From assembly GCA_003223255.1 (NCBI GenBank), contig QHYJ01000176.1, positions 1 to 35,009 on the forward strand: a DNA stretch of 35,009 bases. Direction: 5' to 3'. The notes beneath the pieces are model-generated. The model was not told the origin of the DNA, made no database searches, and saw only the letters and a list, made by a program, of their open reading frames with translations. Shown here in pieces: positions 4,128 through 21,742 of the stretch (positions are counted from its first letter, which is position 1; every line of letters starts with the position of its first letter). The stretch comes from Acidobacteriota bacterium. Lineage in GTDB: Bacteria > Acidobacteriota > Terriglobia > Acidiferrales > UBA7541. Position numbers and translations under genes: made by a program.

Positions 4128-5369
4128 CTAGCGATATGCCAGCCGATAGAGAGCCACGCCGGATCCCAGCGCGAGCCCAAATTCCATGGCGCGGAACAGC
4201 GCCTGCTTGGAGCCGCTTTCCGGAACGTATAAAATGTCGCTCGGTTGAAGCCGCAAGTCTTCCGCTTTGCGATTAAGCACCTTCTTCAAATCGATGGGGA
4301 CTTCATGCTGTTGCCCAAGATTGTCCTTGCGCACGATGACCGCTTTGTCGGACTTCGCCGTGCGGGTCAGACCGCCTGCCAGGGACAAGATCTTCAGAGT
4401 CGTCAGTTGCGTGCGATCATTGGAAAGAACGTAGCCTCCGGCGCGACTCACCGCGCCCAAGACGTAGACAACGCCAGCATGGGGAACCGTAACGACGTCT
4501 CCGGCTTGGAGGGGGATGTTGTTGTTGGTGTCGCCTGTTTCCATCAGGTCGGTCAAATTGATGGTGATGGTATTCGTGAGAGGAGGTGGCTCAGCGCTCG
4601 CGGAAGGTCTCGCCGGCGTTGTGGCCGCTCCGGACGCAGGAGTCGAAGACGCGACGTCTTTCTGGCCGACTTGCGGATTGGAGGAAGTACTGGCTGCAGA
4701 AGAAGAAGCCACAGCGTCAGAAGAACGCGTCTCATCAGCAGGGAGAGCCTTGGCGGGAAGGGGTTGCTCGGGACCGATTTCGGGAGGCTCGCCCGCGTCG
4801 GAAAGTGTCTCCTGGGACGGACGCGAGACAATGATGGTGTCACCTGCATCATTGGAGATTCCGCCAGCTTCCGCGAGAACTTCCAGGAGCGTCACGGGCC
4901 GGTCGGCTTCGTACACCATGGGGTGAAGAACAGCGCCAACAATTGTGATGGGCTTGCTCTTGTGTTCCTTGACGCTGACGCTGACATCCGCGTGCGTGAC
5001 CAGGCCGTTGGCTTCCAGCATCTCCGCGATCTTCTGCTCTGTCTGCATTTCCGTCAGGCCCGCGACGTGCAACCGCACGGGAACCAAAGGGATGCCGATC
5101 GTGCCGGTCTGGCTGACGCGCACCTCGCGGCTCAGCTCTTCTACATCAAAAACGTAAATGCTTAAGAGGTCTCCGGGGCCGATCACGTAGTCGTGGGGCA
5201 TCATCCGCAAAGAAGCGGAGAGTTCCCGAAGGCGGTCATTCACTTGTTGCGGCGTTTCGACAACCGGCTGCGCGCGGACGGCTTGCGCACGGCAAGCCGG
5301 GGAAAGAGGGAGCAGTGCGAGCACGGCTGCAGCACACACCACCCCCCCACCCAGTCTAGCTGGCCGCAT
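4128..5369 (-). CDS. Polysaccharide export outer-membrane protein (Wza/OPX type, SLBB domains)
   Basis: A 413-residue secreted exporter subunit forming the outer-membrane or periplasmic channel that works with the Wzc-like protein. It has an N-terminal signal peptide (hydrophobic run VVCAAAVLALLPL ending near CRAQA). A Poly_export domain follows, beginning HDYVIGPGDLLSIYVFDVEEL, with SLBB-type segments (ITIVGAVLHPMVYEADRPVTL and VVYVLGAVSRAGGYVL). The two SLBB regions are separated by about 80 Ser/Ala/Pro-rich residues, longer than usual. A hydrophobic stretch near the C-terminus (FGLALGSGVALYRLAY) could anchor it. ATG 5369 is preferred over GTG 5390 because GGAGG lies upstream of it and the predicted promoter would initiate between the two. 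It sits between the polymerase and co-polymerase genes. Confidence 0.92.
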   Translation of the reverse strand: MRPARLGGGVVCAAAVLALLPLSPACRAQAVRAQPVVETPQQVNDRLRELSASLRMMPHDYVIGPGDLLSIYVFDVEELSREVRVSQTGTIGIPLVPVRLHVAGLTEMQTEQKIAEMLEANGLVTHADVSVSVKEHKSKPITIVGAVLHPMVYEADRPVTLLEVLAEAGGISNDAGDTIIVSRPSQETLSDAGEPPEIGPEQPLPAKALPADETRSSDAVASSSAASTSSNPQVGQKDVASSTPASGAATTPARPSASAEPPPLTNTITINLTDLMETGDTNNNIPLQAGDVVTVPHAGVVYVLGAVSRAGGYVLSNDRTQLTTLKILSLAGGLTRTAKSDKAVIVRKDNLGQQHEVPIDLKKVLNRKAEDLRLQPSDILYVPESGSKQALFRAMEFGLALGSGVALYRLAYR

Positions 5370-5391
5370 GAGAATAGACGACCTCCGCACG

Positions 5392-5418
5392 ATTATACAG
5401 CGATACGGATAAAGTCAA
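5392..5418 (-). promoter_or_regulatory. Candidate sigma-70 promoter inside the EPS operon
   Basis: On the minus strand, TTGACT (5418-5413) and TATAAT (5397-5392) are separated by 15 bases. Both boxes are near consensus but the spacer is short, so strength is doubtful. The site sits exactly in the 49-base gap between the polymerase stop and the OPX start and could drive the export genes separately. Confidence 0.4.
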
Positions 5419-6684
5419 TTAGGGATTTCGAGAACTGCGATGGTGCCGTTGCGTTGGGGACGCAGAAGGAGGTTGTTGAATTTCGGCCGTTGCCAGGTGC
5501 GCCATAAAGAGAAAAAGCCAGAGATTAGCAGGGATGTGGAAGTTGAAGTCGACCAGCGCATGCACGAGCAATCCAGCACAAGCCACGATTCCAGAAAGTT
5601 GCAGGGCTCCCACAAAGGAAAAGTCATTCTGGCGGAAGCGCGAGAAGGATTTGAGCAGCAAAGCCGCGAGAAACCAGGCACAACAGGAACCGCCCAGGAC
5701 GCCTGTTTCGGCAAGGGCCTCCAGGTAGTCGTTGTGGGAGTGATTGACGATTTTAGCGTCATAGAGAGTTTCGTAGGGCGGATACACGATTTGCAGCGTG
5801 CCGAGTCCCGTGCCTGCCAGCGGATGGTCCAGGAAAATGTGCCAGGAGCCTCGGCGCATGGCGGCGCGCTTGCCTTCAGTCACTTCCAGAGACTGGAACG
5901 AGGAGAAGCGCTGCAGAATCTGGCCAACGCCGAGCCATGTAACCATCAGCAGCGCCGCGAGCAAAACCGCGGCCACGCCCAAGAGATGCTTTCCCAAGCC
6001 GCGGCGACGAAGAAGCAGATAGGTGAGAAGCGCAAGTTGCACACAAAAGCTCACGATGCCGCCGCGAGAAGCCGAGAGGAAGAGCGCGGCGATAGGCATG
6101 ACCGCGAAGAGCGCCACGATGGCGAGGCGTTCGCGGCGGACTCTGCCGAGCACCAGAGGAACCAGCGCCAAGGGCAGGACCAACTCCATCAGTCCCGCGA
6201 AGTGGTTGCGATTCACGTAAGGACCGAACGGTATGCCTCCGTAGCGCAGTTCACGGAACCAATAGAGTTTCCCGTTGAAGGTCAGATGCTGCAGAATGCC
6301 GAACACGCTGACCACAAAACCGAGTCCCATGCCAAACCACACGAAGCTGCGCCAATCGTGAAGCGTTCGAAACGCCTGCACGCATAGAAACAGAAGAATC
6401 AGGCTAGCCAGCAACAACGACAGCTCGATGCGCGTGTTGTAGGGAGAAGCACTCGCGCGAAAGAACCACTGTCCCAGACCGACAAGAAAAAAAGCCGCAA
6501 GCGGCGGGAGCAGCGGCGAGAGAACCGGCTGCTCTTTTTCGTGGAAATAAAAGCGCAGGGCCCAGATCGAAAAGAGAAAGGCGGCGCCTGTTTCCAGGAC
6601 GGCGCGCGCCCAATCTTCCACGCCCCCATGGGCGGCCACAGCAAAGCTGATCAGGACGCAGAGGCCCAGGCGCAAAAACTTCAT
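5419..6684 (-). CDS. O-antigen ligase/Wzy-type polysaccharide polymerase
   Basis: A 421-residue multi-spanning inner-membrane protein with about ten hydrophobic helices, of the Wzy_C/WaaL superfamily. It would polymerise repeat units on undecaprenyl pyrophosphate or ligate chains. Family signatures are visible: NRNHFAG at 158-164, SASRGG at 204-209 in the central core, and the periplasmic-loop motif HSHNDYLE at 315-322. The hydrophilic C-terminal tail is short. Its ATG overlaps the stop of the upstream TPR gene by four bases (ATGA), so translation is coupled. In this operon, next to Wza/Wzc homologues, a polymerase role is more likely than a lipid-A ligase role; sequence alone cannot separate them. 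Confidence 0.9.
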   Translation of the reverse strand: MKFLRLGLCVLISFAVAAHGGVEDWARAVLETGAAFLFSIWALRFYFHEKEQPVLSPLLPPLAAFFLVGLGQWFFRASASPYNTRIELSLLLASLILLFLCVQAFRTLHDWRSFVWFGMGLGFVVSVFGILQHLTFNGKLYWFRELRYGGIPFGPYVNRNHFAGLMELVLPLALVPLVLGRVRRERLAIVALFAVMPIAALFLSASRGGIVSFCVQLALLTYLLLRRRGLGKHLLGVAAVLLAALLMVTWLGVGQILQRFSSFQSLEVTEGKRAAMRRGSWHIFLDHPLAGTGLGTLQIVYPPYETLYDAKIVNHSHNDYLEALAETGVLGGSCCAWFLAALLLKSFSRFRQNDFSFVGALQLSGIVACAGLLVHALVDFNFHIPANLWLFLFMAHLATAEIQQPPSASPTQRHHRSSRNP

Positions 6685-7991
6685 GGCTTGGGAGGCTCCG
6701 ATGCGGCAGGGGTTTGCGTGACCGGAACCAGGGCGACGTCATCTACCCAAGTCATCCCCTGAATCTTGTCATCGACTTCTCGGCTGGGCAAACGCTCCAG
6801 GCAAACTTGCATTTGCTGAACATTTTTTCCGGAAGACCAGGGAATCTCGACGCGGCTCCAGGGTTGGGTGCCGCGAAAATCGCTTGTATCAACCGGCGAA
6901 GCGTCCGGGGTTCCCAGCGGGCGCAATTGGAAGCGGATGCCCTGTTCCGTGGTTATGGATTGAGTCCGCACCCAGGCGGAGAAGTCGTAGTCCGTGGAAG
7001 GTTCCACCGGAACCTCCACACACGGACCGAGGAGATGGAGATTGTATCGGCCATTGAACAGCAGGCGCAGCGATTGCTTACCCGAGTGCTTTTCGCGGGT
7101 ATCCAAGCTAAATTGGGCGCCCTGGGCTCCCGCGGGCAGCGCCCAGGCAAAACCACTTCCAAAGATACCGGCTTCGAAACCCCCATCCCAAAGTACAGAA
7201 CCGGCGGGCTCAGGAAGGTTGCCCAGGCCGGCAAAATCCACGGCTTGCTCCCAAACGCGCTGGGCTTCCGCGACTTGTCTTTCTCTTAGGAGAGCGCTGA
7301 CCAAAGAAAAAGAGTAGTTTCCCAGGCGCAGCTTGGGACGAAGAGCGGCGAGGCGGTTCCAGACCTGAAAGGCATTCATTGTATGGCCCTCGCTGATCTG
7401 TTCGGCAATTGCGCTTACATAGGCGTCACTCAACGGTGGAAGGACGCGGTCAAGAACGAGGTTAGTGTTGGGCTCGGCGCTTAGAGCCCGAGAAAGCGCT
7501 TCGGCGCCACGCTTCGGTTCGGTCTCCACGGCATGGCGCATCTCGAGGAAGGCGTTGTTGGTTTCACCTTCCCGGAGGAGAAAGTTGCCGTAGCGCCAGG
7601 AAATCTCGGCGGAAAGAGGATAGGCTTTTTTGGCGTGAAGAAACGCATCGCGCGCTGCTGTGGTGTTGCCTTCGGCTTCGTACGCGGCGCCCAGATCGGC
7701 CCAGATGTCCGCGGAACGAGGATTGAGTGACAGCGCGACGAGATAGGCCTGGACAGCGCGGGCGGTATCCGTGTCTTCCAGGTTGTATTGCCAATAGCGG
7801 CCCAACAGGTACCAATTCTCAAAGTTCTTTGGCTCCAGCCGGGTGGCGCGCTCGTAACCCTGGAGAGTCTGAAGGCCGGCATAATGAGCGGCGAGCGCGT
7901 TGCGAATGCTGAAATAAGAAAGAAGCAGCACGCAAACAAGAGCAACGGCGGGGACGACAGCACGACGCGAGGAACTGGAAGGCTGGCTCAT
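6681..7991 (-). CDS. Membrane-anchored TPR protein with C-terminal carbohydrate-binding-like domain
   Basis: A 436-residue protein beginning with a signal-anchor helix (AVVPAVALVCVLLLSYFSI, residues 11-29). Tetratricopeptide-type repeats follow (YERATRLEPKNFENWYLLGRYW, the next two repeats through about residue 150). From about residue 255 a beta-rich domain starts WDGGFEAGIFGSGFAW, with an SLRLLFNG strand and a closing WVDDVALVP. That pattern is typical of carbohydrate-binding-module-like or discoidin-like folds in acidobacterial proteins. It is the first gene of the EPS operon and faces the RiPP cluster across a 278-base divergent region. A scaffold or glycan-sensing role in the exopolysaccharide machine is inferred. 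ATG 7991 has no obvious Shine-Dalgarno. Confidence 0.85.
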   Translation of the reverse strand: MSQPSSSSRRAVVPAVALVCVLLLSYFSIRNALAAHYAGLQTLQGYERATRLEPKNFENWYLLGRYWQYNLEDTDTARAVQAYLVALSLNPRSADIWADLGAAYEAEGNTTAARDAFLHAKKAYPLSAEISWRYGNFLLREGETNNAFLEMRHAVETEPKRGAEALSRALSAEPNTNLVLDRVLPPLSDAYVSAIAEQISEGHTMNAFQVWNRLAALRPKLRLGNYSFSLVSALLRERQVAEAQRVWEQAVDFAGLGNLPEPAGSVLWDGGFEAGIFGSGFAWALPAGAQGAQFSLDTREKHSGKQSLRLLFNGRYNLHLLGPCVEVPVEPSTDYDFSAWVRTQSITTEQGIRFQLRPLGTPDASPVDTSDFRGTQPWSRVEIPWSSGKNVQQMQVCLERLPSREVDDKIQGMTWVDDVALVPVTQTPAASEPPKP

Positions 7992-8269: not shown

Positions 8270-10099
8270 TTGAGTGGTTTCATTTGCATCCTCCATTGGG
8301 ACAACGCGCCGATTGACCGGGCGCTGCTCGAATCCCTGACCGATTTTCTGTCTTTTCGAGGTCCAGACGCGTGCGAAGTTTGCCTCGATGGCTCCATCGG
8401 CATGGGTCATGCTCTGCTGCGAACGACGCACGAGTCGAAAAACGAGCGGCAGCCGGCGAGTCTCGAAGAACGCTACCGGATTGTCGCGGATGCCCGGCTG
8501 GACGCTCGGGAGGAACTCATCGATGAGCTGCAGCGGACTGGGCGTAACGTTTGCCCAGACATGCCGGACGGCGATTTGCTTTTGCATGCCTATGCGGCTT
8601 GGGGCGCATCGTGCGTCGATCACTTGCTTGGGGATTTTTCTTTCGCGCTCTGGGACGCCCGCTGTAAACAACTTTTCTGCGCCAGGGATCATTTTGGTGT
8701 CAAGCCCTTCTACTATGCGAGCATCGGCGCGCTTGTTGTCCTGAGTAACACGCTGAATTGCATCCGGCACCATCCAGCCGTCTCGGCACAGCTGAACGAC
8801 CTCGCGATTGCTGATTTTCTGCTATTCGACACGATCCGGGAGTCGGGAGCTACGTCTTTCCGCGACATCCAGAGGCTGCCACCCGCGCACATTCTTGCGT
8901 GCGAGCAAGGAAGAATTTCCGTTCGCCGCTACTGGACGCTGCCAGTGAGCGACCCGATTCATCACAAGCGGCCGGGCGAATGCCTTGACGAATTCCGGGA
9001 ATTAATGGATCGCGCTGTCGCAGACCGCATGAGAATGGACAGTGTGGCGGTGTTGATGAGCGGAGGGCTCGATTCTCCCACCGTGGCGGCGATCGCCAAG
9101 CGGGCACTAAATGGCAATAAGACCCCTGCCGGATTGCGCGCCTATACGGAAGTGTTTGAAAGGCTGATTCCGCACGAAGAACGCCGGTATGCCGAACTCG
9201 TTGTGGGGGCGCTGAAAATCCCGATTGAATTTCAAGTGAGTGATGAGATCGGGTTGTGGAAGGATGCAGATCAGCACGGGAATGGTTGGCCCGAGCCCAT
9301 ACATTCGCCGTTCTCCGATGGTGGGCTGAGCCAGTTACGCCAAGTTGCAGCCGGAAACTGTGTAGCTTTGACCGGATTTGGAGGCGACCCCGCACTTTCG
9401 TGTCAGCTTTCCGTCCATTTTTCCCTGTTGCTTAAGAACAGGCAGATTCGTCGAGCGCTGAGCGATGTGGTGCGATACTTCGCTGCGGAAGGCAGGTTCT
9501 CGCGGTTGTACCTTCGCACGCGCTGGCAGATATGGTTTGGAGACAAGAGTCAAACTCCGCAGTATCCCGTATGGCTGAACCAGGACTTGGAAAAGCCCCT
9601 GGGTTTGCGCGAGCGTTGGGAAACGTTTATGCGCAGTCCGGCCCGCCCCGGAGCCTCACGCGCAACAGCCCAGGAGGCAGTGGCCGATCCCTTTTGGCCA
9701 AACCTGTTTGAGGGTTACGATCCCGGTGTGACAAGCATCCCCGTGGAAGTTCGCCATCCCTTTTTTGACCTTCGGCTTGTAACCTTCTTGCTGGCTTTGC
9801 CAGCGCTGCCCTGGTGCTCCGACAAGGAGCTGCTGAGAGAGGCTGCTCGCGGCGTCCTGCCGGACGCGGTGCGGCTGCGGCGGAAGTCACCGCTCCCGGC
9901 CGACCCTTTGATTGCGCTTCTCGAGCGGCCCGAATCAAAGTGGGTGGATTCTTTTGAAGCCGTCCCGGAGCTCGGTCGTTACGTGGAGCGGAAACGCATC
10001 CCGAAAGTGTTTGGGGAAAAAGATGCTTGGACAGCGTGGATTCATTTGCGTCCGCTCAGTCTGAACTTTTGGTTGCGGTCGAGGGCGGCAGCGGGATAG
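8270..10099 (+). CDS. Asparagine-synthetase-like lasso-peptide macrocyclase (C protein)
   Basis: A 609-residue AsnB homologue. In lasso peptide pathways this enzyme adenylates an Asp/Glu side chain and closes the macrolactam ring. The N-terminal class II glutaminase-like domain (about 1-200) starts MSGFICILHW, so the Cys2 nucleophile of true asparagine synthetases is Ser. A functional ammonia-producing site is therefore absent, as in many lasso cyclases. The synthetase domain keeps the PP-loop SGGLDS at 264-269 and GFGGD at 369-373. The latter replaces the GEGGDE of ordinary AsnB, again cyclase-like. The start is TTG at 8270, with AGGGG nine bases upstream. The precursor peptide gene starts 19 bases after its stop, which makes the lasso-type assignment strong. 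Ordinary asparagine synthesis is unlikely. Confidence 0.88.
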   Translation: MSGFICILHWDNAPIDRALLESLTDFLSFRGPDACEVCLDGSIGMGHALLRTTHESKNERQPASLEERYRIVADARLDAREELIDELQRTGRNVCPDMPDGDLLLHAYAAWGASCVDHLLGDFSFALWDARCKQLFCARDHFGVKPFYYASIGALVVLSNTLNCIRHHPAVSAQLNDLAIADFLLFDTIRESGATSFRDIQRLPPAHILACEQGRISVRRYWTLPVSDPIHHKRPGECLDEFRELMDRAVADRMRMDSVAVLMSGGLDSPTVAAIAKRALNGNKTPAGLRAYTEVFERLIPHEERRYAELVVGALKIPIEFQVSDEIGLWKDADQHGNGWPEPIHSPFSDGGLSQLRQVAAGNCVALTGFGGDPALSCQLSVHFSLLLKNRQIRRALSDVVRYFAAEGRFSRLYLRTRWQIWFGDKSQTPQYPVWLNQDLEKPLGLRERWETFMRSPARPGASRATAQEAVADPFWPNLFEGYDPGVTSIPVEVRHPFFDLRLVTFLLALPALPWCSDKELLREAARGVLPDAVRLRRKSPLPADPLIALLERPESKWVDSFEAVPELGRYVERKRIPKVFGEKDAWTAWIHLRPLSLNFWLRSRAAAG

Positions 10100-10118: not shown

Positions 10119-10268
10119 GTGACGTCGAATTCGCGGGAAGGTAGCAAGAAAAAGCCATACCAGAAACCTAACCTCCGCGTCTACGGAGACATCCGAACGA
10201 TGACCCAGACCGTCCCGAGAGGGAGCGGAAAGGCAGACGCCACAAAGGGCTCCAATAAAACTCACTGA
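10119..10268 (+). CDS. Lasso-type RiPP precursor peptide (49 aa, GTG start)
   Basis: A small gene missed by length filters. GTG at 10119 has GGAGG at 10108-10112, six bases upstream. The peptide contains the canonical lasso leader signature Y14-x2-P17-x-L19-x3-G23-x5-T29 (KPYQKPNLRVYGDIRTMTQ), recognised by the B1/RRE component and marking the leader end by the penultimate Thr. With canonical cleavage the core is TVPRGSGKADATKGSNKTH (residues 31-49): strongly basic, Gly-rich, without aromatic or aliphatic plugs. The only acidic residue in it is D40, at core position 10, outside the known 7-9 ring range. The gene lies between the cyclase (19-base gap) and the kinase (21-base gap). Leader identification is firm; core boundary and topology are open. 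Confidence 0.88.
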   Translation: MTSNSREGSKKKPYQKPNLRVYGDIRTMTQTVPRGSGKADATKGSNKTH

Positions 10269-10289: not shown

Positions 10290-11300
10290 TTGTCAGTATC
10301 GCATACTGTCTATGGGCTGCGAGTTGCAGCCAACATAGCTATCCCCGGCATCTCCCCACGGCTTGATTCAAACGCGTATGATGTACGAGTGCGGCTAAGA
10401 AAGTGGCCTAAATTCCCCTCGACATTTCTTGAGTCCATTGAGGTTTTCCATACGAGTTCAAACGTGATGGCCGGCGGCCAGCCAAACCTGCGCGTCGGTC
10501 TGTTCCCCGGCGGAGAGCATTTTGGCTTCTTTTATGGGGATGGAGCGCGATTCATCGTCGACCGCCGCGGATGCGAAGTGTGGGCTGATTGGCCGGAAGA
10601 TTATTCGCTCGAAGACGCTTGCACCTATTTGCTCGGGCCGGTGATGGGATTTGTGTTGCGCCTCCGCAGAACGGTTTGCCTCCATGCGAGTGCCGTGGCC
10701 ATAAATGATCGCGCTATTACGCTGGTGGGCCCTCCGGGTGCTGGCAAATCAACCGCCGCGGCAGCCTTTGCGCGCGCAGGGTTCCCGGTCCTTTCTGACG
10801 ACGTCGTTGCGCTTGTTGACCATGGAACCGAGTTTCTTGTGCCTCCGGGTTATCCCAGGGTGAACTTGTGGCCGGATTCAGTTCGGAGATTATTTGGATC
10901 CGAAAATGCTCTGCCGCGCATCGCGCCCACGTGGGACAAGCGTTACTTGGCACTTGGCCAGAACGGCCACGGTTTCGCTTCCAGCCCGTTACCGCTCGGG
11001 GCCATCTATACCCTGGACAGTCGCAACGCAGCCGTTAGCAGTCCTGTCTTGGACGAAATTTCCGGTGAAGAGGCATTCATGGCGCTCGTGGCCAACACGT
11101 ATGTGAACTATCTTCTTGACCAGGAGATGCTGCGCACAGAGTTTGATGTGCTTGGCCGCTTGGTCTCGAGCATCCCTATTCGTCGAGTGCGGCCTTCCGC
11201 CGAATCCTCGGCCACCTTCAACCTTTGCGGGTCCATTGCTGCTGACGTCAAGCGAGTGATGACACGCGCTGCTGCCACTGCAGCTGCAGTACGCGGATAA
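10290..11300 (+). CDS. HPr-kinase-like RiPP peptide kinase
   Basis: A 336-residue protein whose C-terminal half resembles the HPr kinase/phosphorylase catalytic domain. It has HASAV with H132, the P-loop GPPGAGKST at 147-155, and the metal-binding or general-base acidic pair SDDVV at D170-D171. The N-terminal 120 residues are divergent and may bind substrate. Homologues in lasso clusters (PadeK, ThcoK) phosphorylate the C-terminal residue or side chain of the precursor. The core here ends SNKTH and has several Ser/Thr candidates. The start is TTG at 10290, with GAGGA at 10281-10285. It follows the precursor by 21 bases and precedes the methyltransferase by 7, one transcription unit. The role as a tailoring kinase is inferred from family plus context. 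Confidence 0.85.
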   Translation: MSVSHTVYGLRVAANIAIPGISPRLDSNAYDVRVRLRKWPKFPSTFLESIEVFHTSSNVMAGGQPNLRVGLFPGGEHFGFFYGDGARFIVDRRGCEVWADWPEDYSLEDACTYLLGPVMGFVLRLRRTVCLHASAVAINDRAITLVGPPGAGKSTAAAAFARAGFPVLSDDVVALVDHGTEFLVPPGYPRVNLWPDSVRRLFGSENALPRIAPTWDKRYLALGQNGHGFASSPLPLGAIYTLDSRNAAVSSPVLDEISGEEAFMALVANTYVNYLLDQEMLRTEFDVLGRLVSSIPIRRVRPSAESSATFNLCGSIAADVKRVMTRAAATAAAVRG

Positions 11301-11307
11301 ACCCCCC

Positions 11308-12456
11308 ATGTACAGCCTGGGTGCCTATGGCTCGATGATAGCGGATCGCGTTCGCGTCGACGCTTATAAGGAAGCTCTACGAAAGACCGTTCGGAAGGGA
11401 TCCGTTGTCGCGGAAATTGGCACGGGACCGGGTGTCTTCGCGGTGCTGGCATGCCAGCTCGGGGCCGAACGAGTCTTTGCCATCGAGCCGGCTGAGATTA
11501 TTCAAGTGGCGCGCGAGGTTGCTGCCGCCAATGGCTGCGCTGGCAGAATCGAGTTTTTCGAGGGGCTTTCTAGCGGGGTGACCCTTCCCGCTCGGGCCGA
11601 CGTCATCCTCTCCGATCTCAGGGGCATCCTCCCGCTTTTCGAGCGCCACATCCCCGCTATCGCGGACGCACGGCGCCGCTTTCTTGCCCCCGGCGGGACC
11701 ATTGTTCCACGAAGGGACACCCTTTGGGCTGCGATCGTGGAAGCTCCAAGACCCTACGGCGAAGTCGTGGATCCTTGGGACCTGAATCCTTTCGGTCAAA
11801 ACCTGAGTCCAGTGCGGCAGCTCGCGGTGAACAATGTGCAAAAAGTGCGTGTAAGTCCTGCCCAGCTTTTGACTGGGCATAAACTCTGGGCCACGCTGGA
11901 TTATGCCAGCATTCAAAACCCTGATGTTCGGGGGAATTTGGAGTGGACAGTGGACCGCACCGGAACCGGCCACGGAATCGTCGTGTGGTTCAATGCGGAT
12001 CTCGCGGAAAACATAGGCTTCTCCAATGCTCCCGGTGCACCCGAGACCATCTACGGATCTTTCTTCTTCCCCTGGACGCAACCTATGCCTTTAAGACAGG
12101 GGCAAACCGTGTGTGTCGACCTCGCGGCGAAGTTGGTCGAAAATGACTACCTCTGGCGATGGACCACGCGCATCAAGCCGCTCTTGGGATCAAGCACTTC
12201 TCCTGTCCATTTTGACCAATCGCAGTTTGCCGGAGCGGTCTTGTCCGCCGCGCAGCTTCACAGAATCGCCGCGGATTATATTCCCCGGCTATCGGACGAG
12301 GGAGTCCTGCGCCGCAGAACTTTCGAGTTGATGGACGGGAGAGCTTCGCTCGAAGAAATCGCGCACAAGCTCGTGGCCGAATTTCCCCATCGATTCTCGA
12401 GCTGGCAACAAGCTTTGTCGTACGCCGGTTTGCTCTCGCAAGAATTCAGCCGCTAA
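11308..12456 (+). CDS. PRMT-like SAM methyltransferase with C-terminal PqqD-like (RRE) tail
   Basis: A 382-residue class I methyltransferase in the protein arginine methyltransferase fold. It has SAM motif I (VAEIGTGPG, 34-42), the acidic end of strand 2 (FAIEP), motif DVILSDLRG where classical PRMTs have the double-Glu hairpin, GGTIVPRRDTLW, and a beta-barrel-like middle part. The PRMT Glu loop is not conserved, so arginine may not be the target. Residues about 322-380 (LSDEGVLRRRTFELMDG, then LEEIAHKLVAEF and a final GLLSQE) look like the winged-helix part of PqqD, the leader-binding RRE or B1 module. The fusion would bring the methyltransferase to the leader. It is the last gene of the operon; no strong Shine-Dalgarno before ATG 11308, so coupling to the kinase is likely. 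Confidence 0.8.
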   Translation: MYSLGAYGSMIADRVRVDAYKEALRKTVRKGSVVAEIGTGPGVFAVLACQLGAERVFAIEPAEIIQVAREVAAANGCAGRIEFFEGLSSGVTLPARADVILSDLRGILPLFERHIPAIADARRRFLAPGGTIVPRRDTLWAAIVEAPRPYGEVVDPWDLNPFGQNLSPVRQLAVNNVQKVRVSPAQLLTGHKLWATLDYASIQNPDVRGNLEWTVDRTGTGHGIVVWFNADLAENIGFSNAPGAPETIYGSFFFPWTQPMPLRQGQTVCVDLAAKLVENDYLWRWTTRIKPLLGSSTSPVHFDQSQFAGAVLSAAQLHRIAADYIPRLSDEGVLRRRTFELMDGRASLEEIAHKLVAEFPHRFSSWQQALSYAGLLSQEFSR

Positions 12457-12520: not shown

Positions 12521-13702
12521 TCAGTCTTTGCCGGCGCGACTATATTTTCGTGCCAAGCGGAAGGGCCGGCGCAAGGCGTCGAGTACAGGATTGCTGCTCA
12601 TCATCTTGCCATCGGCCTGCCAGTCCTCTTCCGTGGGTGAAAAAGAAAGTCTTAGCAGATACGCCGGAGCCGCGAGAAAGTTGCCGCGCATGCGCAGGCG
12701 AAACGCCGCGCGTTCGAATAGACCGAGGTGAGCGTACCCCGGGGCAGGCAGCCAGTGAAGCACGCGCGCCGCAAGCTTTGCGGCCACGGCGTCTTCCCGC
12801 ACGCGCGCAGCAATCGGTTCTGGAAGTTCGGCATGGAGAACATCCATAGCCAGCCGCAAGCCGGTGTGTAGTAGATGCTCGGCCTGCACGGCGTTTGCGG
12901 ACAAGCCAGCGCGCTCCCAACCGATGCCCGGTTGCCGCGCCATCAAGCCCGCGACGTCCGCGATCGAGCCGAGTCTCTTCCAGAAATGCTTCGCGCCATG
13001 AACGCAAATAAGCACGAGATGATCCTCGAGTGAAGGTGCGGGCACTTCATGCCCATCGACGCGCACGCGAATCCGCCGGGCGATGAAATCTTCGATGGGA
13101 ACGGGACGGGGAAAATAACGCAGCGTCAAGTTATTGTGAAGCTCGACGAGCAATTTCGAATCAGGCTTGCAGAAAAGATATTGCCCCGGAATTTTGCCTG
13201 CCCGAATGGCGTCGAGAGAAACCGTTGCTTGGTAGCCAGAACCAATCAGCAACCCCGTAGCGCGCCGGATGTCCCGCTGCCGTACGAGCAGGTCGAGATC
13301 GCCGTAGCTTCGCATTGCTGGGTCGGCGTAAGCCTCGACAGCTAGGACTGGTCCCTTGATGACCAATGCTGAAATTTCATTTCGGTTGAAAAGTTCCAGC
13401 AGACGAAAGAGCTCTCCCGTCAAGCGAAGCGTGAGGAAATTCTGCTCGCGCTGTCGTTCGAGTAGCGCCTGTTGGATTTCGGGAGGCATGGCGGCGTCGC
13501 AATCGTTCAGGCAAGCCGCGAGCTGTCCAACCAGGCCATGCTTGTCAGCGAGCATGAGCAAGCGAGGCCAGTCCACGGTGGGAAAATATTGCCGCAGCCG
13601 TTCTTTGTCGCTCCAAGGAGAAACGCATTCTCGCAGCGCGGTCCATTCGCGCTCGAACGCGCGGTTGTCGGAGATCCGCTCCGCTGAAAGCAGTTCAGCC
13701 AT
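12521..13702 (-). CDS. Nucleotidyltransferase family protein (NTP_transf_5 type, RiPP-associated)
   Basis: A 393-residue cytoplasmic protein with the nucleotidyltransferase signature of this family: IKGPVLAVEAYADPAMRSYGDLDLLV, with the GDLDLLV metal-binding aspartates and the upstream Lys. A helical region follows, containing HGAKHFWKRLGSIADVAGLM. Members are frequent beside lasso clusters carrying a kinase (PadeN in the paeninodin cluster), though their function there is not established. It is convergent with the methyltransferase (64-base gap), so it is not in the same transcript. ATG 13702 is chosen because AGGGA lies just upstream. Assignment to the RiPP system rests on family co-occurrence. 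Confidence 0.85.
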   Translation of the reverse strand: MAELLSAERISDNRAFEREWTALRECVSPWSDKERLRQYFPTVDWPRLLMLADKHGLVGQLAACLNDCDAAMPPEIQQALLERQREQNFLTLRLTGELFRLLELFNRNEISALVIKGPVLAVEAYADPAMRSYGDLDLLVRQRDIRRATGLLIGSGYQATVSLDAIRAGKIPGQYLFCKPDSKLLVELHNNLTLRYFPRPVPIEDFIARRIRVRVDGHEVPAPSLEDHLVLICVHGAKHFWKRLGSIADVAGLMARQPGIGWERAGLSANAVQAEHLLHTGLRLAMDVLHAELPEPIAARVREDAVAAKLAARVLHWLPAPGYAHLGLFERAAFRLRMRGNFLAAPAYLLRLSFSPTEEDWQADGKMMSSNPVLDALRRPFRLARKYSRAGKD

Positions 13703-13940
13703 GGTGATCCCTGAGCTTATCAATGAATCGGTTTGCTCTCACGAATCGAATCGTGGCTTAGGGTGGTTTTCTGGAGAGCTTACAAATCAAAACGACGGGG
13801 CCATCCAACCTCAGGAGTCAAACCTGGGCAAGTTACTTTCTCCTCGCAATGAGCCCACACGATAAGCCAGCTCGCGGCTTCGACGGCGCCGTTTGGAACT
13901 TCTCCCCATTTTTGTTTGTCAGGGTCCGGAAACCGTGGAG

Positions 13941-17421: not shown

Positions 17422-18891
17422 CTATTTGCCCGAGCTGGCGCCCAAGGCTTCGTCGCGGCCGCGCCGCCGGACCTCGATGGCCAAACGCTTGATTTTCTGG
17501 TTTAGCGTCGAAAGGGGAATGAGAAACCGCTCGGCCGCTTCGGTTTGGTTCCAGTTGGTGCGCTCGAGCATGTCCACGATGATGCGGCGTTCGATCTCGT
17601 CCATGATTTGAAACAGCGAAGGTTGCGGGCTATCCGCCGCCGAGCGGGCGCCCGGCTCGCCGGGAATCGCCGCGATAAACTCCGTGAGTTGCAGCCGCAC
17701 GCCGCGAACGATCTCCTTGCTGCGAATGGCTTCGGGCAGCAAGTCCACGTCCATGCGGTTTTGCGTCGAAAGCACCACGGCGCGCTCGGCGACGTTTTCC
17801 AGTTCGCGCACATTGCCGGGCCAGTCGTAATCCATCATCAATTTCATGGCGCTCGGCGTAAACTGCAGAAGCGGCCGTTTATTTTCCAGGCAGAAGCGCT
17901 CTAGGAAATGCGTCACAAGCAGCGGCACGTCTTCGCGGCGCTCGCGGAGCGGCGGGATTTGCATGTGAATAACATTCAGGCGGTGGAACAAATCTTCGCG
18001 GAAGCGGCCCTCGCGCACCAGCGTGAGCAGATCGACGTTCGAAGCGGCCACAATGCGCACGTCCACCCTAATTTGTTCGGTGCCGCCCAGGCGCATGAAT
18101 TCGCGCTCCTGGATGACGCGCAGCAGCTTGGCTTGCGTTTCCGCGCTGATGGTGGCGATTTCATCAAAGAAAATGGTGCCCTGATCGGCCACTTCGAAGA
18201 GGCCTTTTTTCGAAACTACAGCACTGGTGAAAGCGCCTTTTACGTGGCCGAACAGCTGCGATTCAAGAAGATCAACGGGGATGGAGCCGGTATTGACGGG
18301 CACGAAGGCTTTGTCCGCGCGCGGAGAAGCCGAGTGCAGCGCTTTGGCAATAAGTTCCTTGCCCGTGCCGCTCTCGCCGCTGATGAGCACGGTAGACCGC
18401 GAAGGCGCCACTTGGGCCACGAGATCCAGCAGCACCTGCATCTTGTCGCTCTTGCCTACGATGTTCGGGAAATTGAAGCGCTGCTTGAGGGCGCGCTTGA
18501 GATGGATATTTTCGTCGCGTAGGCGGCGCGATTCCACGGCTTGCGCCACCTGGGCGAGCAGTTCATCGTTGGACCAAGGCTTGGTGATGTAATCCATTGC
18601 GCCGTTTTTGAAAGCGGCGCGCGCCATATCGATGGAGCCGTAAGCGGTGATCAGGACAACGGAGAGGTCCGGGTCGCGGCGGCGAATTTCCTTCAGCATG
18701 TCAAGGCCGTTGCGGTCCGGCAGGCTGACGTCCAACAGCAAAAGGTCGAAGGGCTGCTCTTCCAGCTTGGCGAGGCCGGATTCGCCGGTTTCGGCACTGG
18801 CTACGCCGTAGCCTTCGCCCCTCAGCAGAACTTCCAGGCCCTCGCGAATTTCGCATTCGTCGTCGACGACCAGAATGGAACCCTTAGACAT
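17422..18891 (-). CDS. Sigma-54-dependent response regulator (NtrC type)
   Basis: A 489-residue cytoplasmic transcription activator in three domains. The receiver (1-120) has D10-D11, phosphoacceptor D54 and K104. The AAA+ domain has Walker A GESGTGKE, the sigma-54 loop as GAFTSA at 219-224 (consensus GAFTGA), Walker B GTIFFDE, and the arginine-finger region LFHRLNVIHMQIPPLRERRED. The Fis-type helix-turn-helix is NWNQTEAAERFLIPLSTLNQKIKRL near the C-terminus. ATG 18891 starts directly at the receiver; longer upstream starts would lie in the kinase gene. It overlaps the histidine kinase by 8 bases, so the two form a coupled two-component pair. Targets are unknown, but a candidate sigma-54 promoter precedes the kinase, suggesting autoregulation. 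Confidence 0.93.
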   Translation of the reverse strand: MSKGSILVVDDECEIREGLEVLLRGEGYGVASAETGESGLAKLEEQPFDLLLLDVSLPDRNGLDMLKEIRRRDPDLSVVLITAYGSIDMARAAFKNGAMDYITKPWSNDELLAQVAQAVESRRLRDENIHLKRALKQRFNFPNIVGKSDKMQVLLDLVAQVAPSRSTVLISGESGTGKELIAKALHSASPRADKAFVPVNTGSIPVDLLESQLFGHVKGAFTSAVVSKKGLFEVADQGTIFFDEIATISAETQAKLLRVIQEREFMRLGGTEQIRVDVRIVAASNVDLLTLVREGRFREDLFHRLNVIHMQIPPLRERREDVPLLVTHFLERFCLENKRPLLQFTPSAMKLMMDYDWPGNVRELENVAERAVVLSTQNRMDVDLLPEAIRSKEIVRGVRLQLTEFIAAIPGEPGARSAADSPQPSLFQIMDEIERRIIVDMLERTNWNQTEAAERFLIPLSTLNQKIKRLAIEVRRRGRDEALGASSGK

Positions 18892-21703
18892 GAGCCGCTT
18901 TCCTGGCTGCGGGGAATTCGACGTGGAACGAAGTGCCCTTCCCGGGGGTCGACCGCACATCAATCTTTCCCGCGTGCTCTTTGATAATACCGTAGCTCAC
19001 CGAGAGCCCCAGGCCGGTGCCGCGGCCGTTGGCCTTGGTGGTGAAGAAAGGATCAAAGATGCGGTTGATGTCTTCTCGGGCGATTCCTCCGCCGGTGTCC
19101 GCGATTTCGATTTCCACGCTGCCATTGTGCGCGGCGGTGCGAACTTCCAGCATGCCACCGCTGGGCATGGCATCGCGCGCGTTCAAAAAGAGATTCAAGA
19201 AGACCTGCTGCAGCTTGTTCGCGGAGCCGTGCACGGGCGGCAAGGACTCGGAGAGTTCTTTCACCACTTGAATCTGCGACGTCTTCAGCGGATGGGCCAC
19301 CAGCGAGAGAGTTTCCTCGACCACGTGGTTTACGTCCACGCTCGCCGCTTCGGCCGCCCCGGTGCGTGAGAAATTGAGCAGATTGTTGACAATCTCGCTG
19401 GCGCGGAACGTCTGCTTGACGATCTTATCGATGATCGACTGGCGCGGGTCGCCTTCCGGCATCTGCTTGGCCAGCATTTGGATGTAATTCGAAATCACCG
19501 CCAGCGGCGTGTTCACTTCATGCGCCACGCCGGCAGCGAGCAGGCCAAGGGAGGTCAGCTTTTCCGTCTGCGTCATTTGCTCTTCCATGCGCTCGCGCTG
19601 CGTCACATCGTCAAAGAGCAGCAGCCGTCCAATGCGTTCATTGGACTTGCTGACCAGCGGCGTGATGGAGACGTTCAACGTCAAATGCTTTCCCTGGTGA
19701 TGGAGTCTCTGTTTATAGATGCCGGTAATGTGTTCCTGGTCGCCGCGGGCGGCAATTTCCTGTGCCAATTCCTCCGGAAGCAGGGAGCTGAGCCTGCGGC
19801 CCACCGCGTCGCGGCGCAGGACTCCGAACAGCTGCTCCATGCGCGTGTTCCAGGATTCGACGATGCCCTCCAAATCCACCGCGAGCACGCCCACGTTCAA
19901 GGATTCCACGATGTTTTCGCTGAAATCCTTAAGGCGAGCAATTTCCAGCGCTTTCTGTTCAAGAGAGCTGTAAAGTTGGGCGTTATCGAGCGCAACGGCA
20001 ACATAACCTGCGATGGTTTCCACCAACTCGACATCGTCGCTCGAAAGGAAATCCCCGTCAACCGTTTTGCCAAGGCCGAGAACGGCGACGGTGTGCTCGC
20101 GAATGCGGCAGGGAATGAAATAGTTCAGATCCAATTGTTCCAGAGTCCCGCGGACGGAGTCGCTCACGTCTTTCGCCGCACGGGGCGACTCAAAGAAGAG
20201 CGCCCCCCGGGCGAACTCGGGCCGGGCCGGATCGAGGAAGCTAAGATCCATGGACCCCGAAAGACGCACGCCCATGGAGCGCGCGAGGCGCATCGTGCCG
20301 GGTTGCTCGGGGTCGTCCACGAAAATCGCCAGGCGATCCACCAGCAGCGTTTGCGAGATGCGGTCCATCACCGAACCCAGCATCGGATCAAGGCGCACTT
20401 CGTTGGTCAGCGTGCGGCCAAATTCGATCAAGGTGCGGCGGTAGTCGAGCCGGTCGCGGTAAAAGAAGCGATCGAGGCGCGCTTGAATCCATTCGCGGAA
20501 GGGCTGAAACAAGAACGCGGCAATGACCATCGCGATCATGCCGCCAACCGGCCCCGTGGCGGGAGCGTGGAAGAAATAAGTGATAAGGGCCACGAGCGAA
20601 AAATAAACCGTGGCCACAGCGGCGGTGGCCGCGGTGTATGCCAAGCCGCGCTTGAAAATAATGTCCACGTCCATCAGGCGGTAGCGAATAATGGCATAGG
20701 CAAAGCACAGAGGAATGAGTACGAGGCTTACCACAGTGAGCTTCATCCAAACAGGCGGCGCAAGACCGAACAAGGGCGGAAGAATGTATAGGAGCGACAC
20801 GGGGAGGCTGCCAGCCAGTGTGCCGCCCGTGAGCCACTTGAGCTGCTGCCGAAGAACACCGGAGGGCGCTTCGCGGTAATTCCGGTAGAAGACAACGCCC
20901 GCGGCAATGAAGCAAGCCGCGAGATAGGCAAACTCAAGTTTATCCAGCAACAGATAAGCGCCGAGCCACGGCACAAATCCCAAAGCGGCCAGCGCCGTGC
21001 TTACATGAACCAGCAGCAAAACCAGGGGCAGGAGATAGACGGCCAGCAGTTTCGCTGTGGCGCGCGCCTTCGATTCGGTCCGTCCAGGAAAGACCAAAGC
21101 GAAATGGAGCAACAAGCCGGGCACCAGCAAACGCGCCACGACTTCGGACCAATAAATCTCCCAGTCGAAAGCGTCCAGTTTTCCGCTGAAGTGGAACGAC
21201 CAAAGGCTGAAAGAAGCCAGGCAAAAAATGTAGAAGTGCACGGCCCGGGGAGCATTCCACCGGCGGACGAAAATGAACAGGCCGATGAACAGGTAAAACA
21301 AGCCGACAACGCGAAGGTAATTTTCAATGGCCAAGGGCTTAACAGCAGGAGCGGTCACCAGGGGCGTTTCAAACTCTTCCCCATTGCGGGAGAGCTTGTA
21401 GTGGACAATGGTCCAGAGGCCGGCGCGATCTAGCCGCCGAGCCACGTCTGCTGCTCTAGTGATAGAAGCATCGTTAAATGCCAGCAGGATATCGCCAGGG
21501 CGAATGGCGGTATGACTGGCGGGAGAATTGGGCTCAATAGACTCGGCTTTGACGCCGTGGTCGGTGTCCAGCCAAATCACGCCATCGTAGACCTGCTCGT
21601 AGCGGGAGCGCTGGTCAAAATTCAATAGGGCAAAAATGACCGCCGCCAGCGTGGCGAGCGCCAGCACCACCACTCCGAGACTGACTCGCAGGTTCTGCTT
21701 CAT
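18884..21703 (-). CDS. Membrane sensor histidine kinase with PDZ, GAF and PAS domains
   Basis: A 939-residue hybrid-free kinase. After a first membrane helix (LGVVVLALATLAAVIFALL) a periplasmic PDZ-like domain (about 45-120; AESIEPNSPASHTAIRPGDI) precedes about eight further membrane helices (to about residue 390). Then follow a GAF domain (GRTLTNEVRLDPMLGSVMDRI onward), a PAS domain (NIVESLNVGVLAVDLEGIVE), the HisKA dimerisation helix with H728 (GVAHEVNTPL), and an ATPase domain with N-box LNLFLNARDAM and G-boxes DTGGGIA and GTGLGLSV. It would phosphorylate the overlapping NtrC-type regulator. The stimulus is probably membrane or periplasmic state, inferred from the PDZ sensor. ATG 21703 is preferred to the in-frame TTG at 21715; neither has a strong Shine-Dalgarno. 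Confidence 0.92.
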   Translation of the reverse strand: MKQNLRVSLGVVVLALATLAAVIFALLNFDQRSRYEQVYDGVIWLDTDHGVKAESIEPNSPASHTAIRPGDILLAFNDASITRAADVARRLDRAGLWTIVHYKLSRNGEEFETPLVTAPAVKPLAIENYLRVVGLFYLFIGLFIFVRRWNAPRAVHFYIFCLASFSLWSFHFSGKLDAFDWEIYWSEVVARLLVPGLLLHFALVFPGRTESKARATAKLLAVYLLPLVLLLVHVSTALAALGFVPWLGAYLLLDKLEFAYLAACFIAAGVVFYRNYREAPSGVLRQQLKWLTGGTLAGSLPVSLLYILPPLFGLAPPVWMKLTVVSLVLIPLCFAYAIIRYRLMDVDIIFKRGLAYTAATAAVATVYFSLVALITYFFHAPATGPVGGMIAMVIAAFLFQPFREWIQARLDRFFYRDRLDYRRTLIEFGRTLTNEVRLDPMLGSVMDRISQTLLVDRLAIFVDDPEQPGTMRLARSMGVRLSGSMDLSFLDPARPEFARGALFFESPRAAKDVSDSVRGTLEQLDLNYFIPCRIREHTVAVLGLGKTVDGDFLSSDDVELVETIAGYVAVALDNAQLYSSLEQKALEIARLKDFSENIVESLNVGVLAVDLEGIVESWNTRMEQLFGVLRRDAVGRRLSSLLPEELAQEIAARGDQEHITGIYKQRLHHQGKHLTLNVSITPLVSKSNERIGRLLLFDDVTQRERMEEQMTQTEKLTSLGLLAAGVAHEVNTPLAVISNYIQMLAKQMPEGDPRQSIIDKIVKQTFRASEIVNNLLNFSRTGAAEAASVDVNHVVEETLSLVAHPLKTSQIQVVKELSESLPPVHGSANKLQQVFLNLFLNARDAMPSGGMLEVRTAAHNGSVEIEIADTGGGIAREDINRIFDPFFTTKANGRGTGLGLSVSYGIIKEHAGKIDVRSTPGKGTSFHVEFPAARKAAHV

Positions 21704-21742
21704 GACCGTCAGCAAATCGACAAGCGAAGACTACAATCCGGT

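Follow-up and report, generated by a model that had tools for sequence, protein, structure and literature searches.

A lasso-type precursor peptide of an Acidobacteriota bacterium with a predicted ten-residue ring

The rings of lasso peptides have seven to nine residues according to the relevant passages of one review (PMC8498205), which also mention an analogue with a ten-residue ring made in vitro, and the ring of fusilassin tolerated seven to ten residues as summarized in part of a 2026 review (PMC13352647). In the fusilassin/fuscanodin variants treated in these passages a ten-residue macrolactam was accepted by the lasso cyclase, as would be needed here, but that ring was engineered, whereas the one discussed here is predicted in natural precursors. 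No natural lasso ring of more than nine residues appears in the passages of the two reviews, and our literature searches among open-licence papers found no natural example with a ten-residue ring.

Among the described systems, that of BsfA from Bradymonas sediminis resembles our locus in its split B1/B2 proteins, in an HprK-like kinase with the same motif and in a YxxPxL leader at positions -17 to -12, as described in the pertinent part of PMC10368454. The leader cut of BsfA was confirmed in vitro, its residue -2 is Ile, the ring is predicted between Gly1 and Asp8, and Ser3 is phosphorylated (same part of PMC10368454); in our locus, by contrast, there are Thr at -2, Asp at core position 10, a C-terminal basic-Thr motif, a gene for a protein similar to protein arginine methyltransferases (PRMT), and B genes located elsewhere. 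The paeninodin/pseudomycoidin class shares with our locus an HprK-like kinase directed at the C-terminal region of the precursor, and the pseudomycoidin cluster also a nucleotidyltransferase; however, the passages on this class in PMC8498205 refer to a C-terminal Ser, while our precursor family has a Thr near the end, mostly after Lys or Arg, plus the PRMT-like gene. Metanodin, as presented in part of PMC12670498, is comparable in that its ring start was inferred from the Thr two residues upstream and its first residue is non-standard, but this residue is Asn1 and its ring has the expected size.

The window, by which we mean the whole stretch of 35,009 nucleotides analysed, corresponds to contig C116 in a draft genome of 6.66 Mb. 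On its forward strand, between a lasso cyclase homologue and an HprK-related kinase, lies a 49-residue ORF (precursor A, 10119..10268) that starts with GTG at 10119 behind a ribosome-binding-like site, TTGGAGG, and ends with a stop codon at 10266-10268. Its translation divides after Q30 (codon 10206-10208) into the leader MTSNSREGSKKKPYQKPNLRVYGDIRTMTQ (residues 1-30, 10119..10208) and the core TVPRGSGKADATKGSNKTH (10209..10265). The NCBIfam model NF033528 (lasso_cyano) matches it with E 8e-6 and 25.7 bits, which does not reach the curated cut-off of 33 bits. Locus L026, the best relative of the window, encodes a peptide 84% identical, with the same GTG start and TTGGAGG element in front, and between the two dN is 0.112 and dS 0.288, indicating purifying selection, on few sites (leader 0.045/0.218, core 0.233/0.412, likewise on few sites). 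A profile built from 15 homologues matches 57 of the 95 genomes of the order at E<=0.001. Given this close relative, dN below dS and the distribution in the order, the ORF is not a chance ORF and is a conserved lasso-type precursor. A wider sampling of the class brought few further precursors: they were found in 58 of 399 genomes, and 54 of these genomes belong to the window's own family.

In split-B systems Tyr is found at -17, Pro at -14 and Leu at -12 relative to the cut, according to the part of PMC10368454 dealing with them. Applied to Y14, P17 and L19 of the precursor (with G23 at -8), this register makes T29 residue -2 and Q30 residue -1; the core would accordingly begin at T31, with D40 as its residue 10. 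The first-pass annotation had likewise placed D40, as the only acidic residue of the core, at position 10 after a cut behind Q30, and both the register and the ORF agree with it. Among 78 precursor rows from the fetched loci, 77 are distinct after removal of one identical pair (L031 and L076), and none was dropped for a missing anchor. Since the anchor pattern required Y/W/C, P, a hydrophobic residue and G/A, the conservation of these positions is partly built in; Thr at -2 is no part of the pattern, and its occurrence in 75 of the 77 (the other two have Arg and Ile) is independent of it. Cleavage of the window precursor is therefore predicted after T29-Q30.

The cyclase homologue C (8270..10099, forward strand) adjoins the precursor and is asparagine-synthetase-like (PF00733 1.8e-26, GATase_7 1.4e-22), with an ATP loop SGGLDS whose pattern SGGxDS occurs in 73/73 C sequences. 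The best NCBIfam family for it is the lasso cyclase model NF033535 (E 1e-104), at 351.4 bits against a curated cut-off of 525 bits. The locus has an asparagine-synthetase-like cyclase homologue beside the precursor and the YxxPxL leader with Thr at -2, as in the lasso class, but the acid that in this class stands at core position 7, 8 or 9 is here an Asp at 10, and for this reason we file the peptide as lasso-type and not as a standard lasso peptide. It is a testable variant of the known lasso class and not a new class.

Counting from the start of the core, the first acid stands at position 9 in 45 of the distinct precursors, at 8 in 20, at 10 in ten, at 11 in one and at 1 in L124, where another Asp follows at 9; 73/77 cores have a single acid. 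The Asp-10 precursors are those of the window, L026, L028, L077 (its core identical to that of L028), L031, L036, L037 and L079, together with two from L029, whose remaining precursor is the Asp-11 one. Locus L029 holds its three precursors (Asp 10, 10 and 11) within 7 kb together with two methyltransferase and two kinase genes, and in one of its leaders Cys and YA replace Tyr and YG. With 11 precursors having Asp at 10 or 11, the window copy is not a lone degenerate; it follows its own group and is no outlier. A single origin of this group is not supported, as the cyclase tree (63 rows, quick method, SH-aLRT only) implies six changes, at least five of them forced by starred branches.

The residue that is fixed before the Asp, for which the first-pass annotation had proposed an alignment, turned out to be one of three: after the conserved T-x, core residue +1 is Ser (4), Ala (4) or Thr (3) in all 11 Asp-10/11 precursors. 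This pattern speaks against one of the options raised earlier, an unusual start residue, and leaves the larger ring as the best supported. The residue nine before the Asp, which would start a nine-residue ring, is Ile in three, Val in three, Thr in three and Lys in two. The Pro start that an eight-residue ring would have in the window was discarded, Pro being found at that place in the window and L026 only. The acid-9 precursors are more varied at +1 (Thr 12, Ala 8, Ser 7, Lys 6, Arg 5 and others). A conserved Gly seven to nine residues before the Asp, with the window as an outlier, had been named as the pattern that would speak against the irregular geometry; it occurs in part of the family, with Gly at +3, seven before the acid, in 32/45 acid-9 precursors, but not in the Asp-10/11 group (1/11). 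In the acid-8 set (n=20) Gly is at +3 in 10 and at +4 in 12, and seven before the acid in 7, so its position is tied to the leader no less closely than to the acid.

Neither B1 nor B2 is present in the window. Two PF13471 matches lie elsewhere in the genome, on contigs C62 and C317. The first belongs to a stand-alone B1-B2 pair (L172, 6862-7669), and within 14 kb around it no cyclase, precursor or kinase matches were found; this pair apparently serves clusters elsewhere in the genome. The second is beside the start of another cyclase: contig C317 (L182, whole length 5.7 kb) carries a second lasso-type locus, with B2 followed by a cyclase start cut by the contig end, and in L177-L180 of relatives one B2 is accompanied by two cyclase matches in a row. 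The four closest relatives (genomes G006, G019, G002 and G001) have no B genes in the fetched cluster sequence, and each has a matching remote B1-B2 pair (B2 identity 63-68%). In the genus, where 23/36 genomes have a precursor match, B2 (E<=1e-10) is found in 23/23 of these, in 13 of them on another contig than the precursor, and in 3/13 of the precursor-negative genomes. The Fisher p for this co-occurrence is 1.1e-6 (5.4e-5 for unlinked pairs only), a value that overstates it because the genomes share ancestry and are not all complete, the neighbours having been inspected for five of the 13 remote pairs. The co-occurrence suggests that the remote pair may act in trans on the window precursor. 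In known RRE proteins a Tyr is said to touch Thr -2, in the part of PMC10368454 concerned, and its counterpart, a YFG/YYG motif, is present in 15 of 16 B1 rows, the remaining one, L030, being in the wrong frame.

Taking these data together, the precursor probably gives a lasso-type peptide with canonical cleavage and a ten-residue ring, and on this best reading the ring would exceed by one residue those known from natural lasso peptides. The B1-B2 pair encoded elsewhere in the genome would bind the YxxPxL leader and cut at the predicted site; the cyclase would then link the T31 alpha-amine with the D40 side chain, leaving a ten-residue macrolactam with a nine-residue tail. The kinase may phosphorylate a tail hydroxyl, most likely that of T48, before or after ring closure, and the PRMT-like enzyme may methylate the core, with the K47-T48 motif as the likeliest site. 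Weighing against the ten-residue ring are the absence of an aromatic plug in the window core and the scores of cyclase, kinase and precursor below the NCBIfam cut-offs.

If the leader peptidase cut one residue later (T31|V32), the ring would have nine residues starting with Val (Ile, Thr or Lys in relatives) and would stay within the known range of seven to nine (passages of PMC8498205). A cyclase that measures nine would also be expected to be similar between Asp-9 and Asp-10 loci, and indeed the cyclases of L027 and L077, with the precursor Asp at 9 and 10, respectively, are 92.1% identical over 609 positions. However, the conserved Thr, which keeps its distance from YxxPxL in the Asp-10 set, would become -3, and the uniform S/T/A at +1 would give way to V/I/T/K/A at +2 as first residue. 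Moreover, the remote B1 proteins of the L027 and L077 genomes (L174, L176) are 96.2% identical over 105 positions, so altered cutting would not be expected, and we consider the later cut unlikely. At these identities one kind of cyclase and B1 seems to accept both Asp-9 and Asp-10 substrates, as a tolerant cyclase would. In the cyclase tree the window groups with L026, L027, L028 and L077 (branch value 100, starred), and the Asp positions in this clade are 10, 10, 9, 10 and 10. The Gly of the acid-9 relatives could mean that there the cut is two residues later; extended to the whole family, a cut two or three residues later would give seven-residue rings, mostly with Gly first and with R34 here, where the Gly would have been lost. 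Such a shift is very improbable, since the acid-8 Gly follows the leader and a start at Gly +3 would leave six-residue rings in that set, the conserved Thr would fall at -4 or -5, and the Gly is nearly absent from the Asp-10/11 group. Because this group does not have the Gly pattern and the acid-8 Gly keeps to +3/+4, we favour a single register for the whole family and a ten-residue ring in the window.

A macrolactam without a threaded tail, that is a branched cyclic phosphopeptide and no lasso, is compatible with a ten-residue ring and has a modest chance of being the product. The core without F/W/Y and the larger ring point in this direction, and threading is a prediction for all members found here; on the other hand, the nearest NCBIfam family of the cyclase is the lasso one, and cores free of aromatics are so common that their absence does not single out the window. 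The core had been described at first as basic and lacking an aromatic residue, which is confirmed (net charge +3, one His), but no F/W/Y is found either in 25/45 acid-9, 12/20 acid-8 and 6/11 Asp-10/11 cores, and 30/45 acid-9 cores have a net charge of +3 or +4, so these traits appear common within the family. Decay of the cluster, with B1/B2 lost, the core drifting and no product made, would explain the lack of both genes in the window and is the least probable of all: cyclase and kinase motifs and the SAM site are intact, dN is below dS for precursor, kinase and methyltransferase, the layout is common to four close relatives, and all five genomes carry a remote B1-B2 pair.

The kinase (K, 10290..11300, forward strand) has the motif LHA..GPPGAGKS..DD intact, with the His, P-loop GxxGxGKS and paired Asp given for lasso peptide kinases in part of PMC10368454, and matches TIGR04352 (HprK_rel_A) at 2.5e-13, below the cut-off; the strict pattern is found in 51/68 K sequences. 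It would presumably act on a Ser/Thr of the core, most likely T48. In 52/77 cores the last six residues include a basic residue (K, R or H) with Thr after it, as opposed to a mean of 10.7 and a maximum of 21 in shuffled tails (2000 shuffles). The motif is present in 11/11 Asp-10/11 cores and in 36/45 acid-9 cores, mostly from loci without the methyltransferase, and being common there it more likely belongs to the kinase than to the methyltransferase. In two L029 cores and in L032 its K/R is the sole K/R of the core, so any methylation of a core Lys or Arg in these must hit that residue. Locus L033 has the methyltransferase and no K/R-Thr in the core.

The methyltransferase homologue M (11308..12456, forward strand) matches protein arginine methyltransferases over the catalytic SAM-binding core and the beta-barrel, about residues 8-270 (PF22528 PRMT_C 1.7e-8), and its family profile matches PRMT1/PRMT8 chains among PDB sequences at about 1e-42; the structure model has a pLDDT of 86.3. 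The motif of these enzymes is the double-Glu loop. Unlike them, M has SDLRGILPLFE at this place, with Asp instead of the first Glu, the second position is E/Q/N/D/other among M relatives, and there is an extra helical C-terminus. With these replacements the arginine pocket is not kept, and methylation of Arg by a classical PRMT pocket is doubtful, the more so as several M-linked cores contain Lys but no Arg (e.g. L028, L032). Profile comparison with the 16 B1 rows, L030 in its wrong frame among them, did not support a PqqD-like (RRE) domain suspected in the C-terminal part of M (probability 1.2%). The gene is found in 19/89 genomes of the family. A strict link between M and Asp-10 was also rejected: L079 has Asp-10 without a neighbouring M, and the M-linked near-clade loci L027, L030, L032, L033, L038, L039 and L078 have Asp at 8 or 9. 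Scarcely any joint mention of a lasso peptide and an arginine methyltransferase was found in the parts of the open-licence literature covered. Homologues of M beside precursor-like ORFs and kinase matches occur in Erythrobacter donghaensis (L125), Tropicimonas (L126) and Nitrospira (L128).

The rule of seven to nine residues is built into descriptions of the lasso class and into the prediction of lasso precursors. If natural rings of ten or eleven residues occur, such clusters are being missed or mis-cut, and the L027/L077 pair would allow the measuring of the ring by the cyclase to be tested directly. The combination of a peptide kinase with an adjacent PRMT-type enzyme would also be unusual for tailoring. 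Tentatively, and with rather less confidence than in the ring itself, these loci might represent a natural lineage of lasso peptides whose rings have ten and eleven residues, where a phosphorylated Thr beside a methylated Lys/Arg replaces an aromatic residue as stopper of the wider ring and the leader-peptidase pair of the split system is remote. All data come from sequences, mostly of draft genomes.

Convergent to the cluster in the window is a PF14907 nucleotidyltransferase gene (N, 12521..13723, reverse strand; 2.9e-50), which adjoins M in many relatives and is possibly an accessory gene. Polysaccharide export genes (SLBB/Poly_export, Wzy-type ligase and a TPR protein; 4128..7991, reverse strand) lie directly upstream of the cluster, and a sensor kinase and NtrC-like regulator pair, judged from ORF reading, is encoded at 17422..21715 on the reverse strand.
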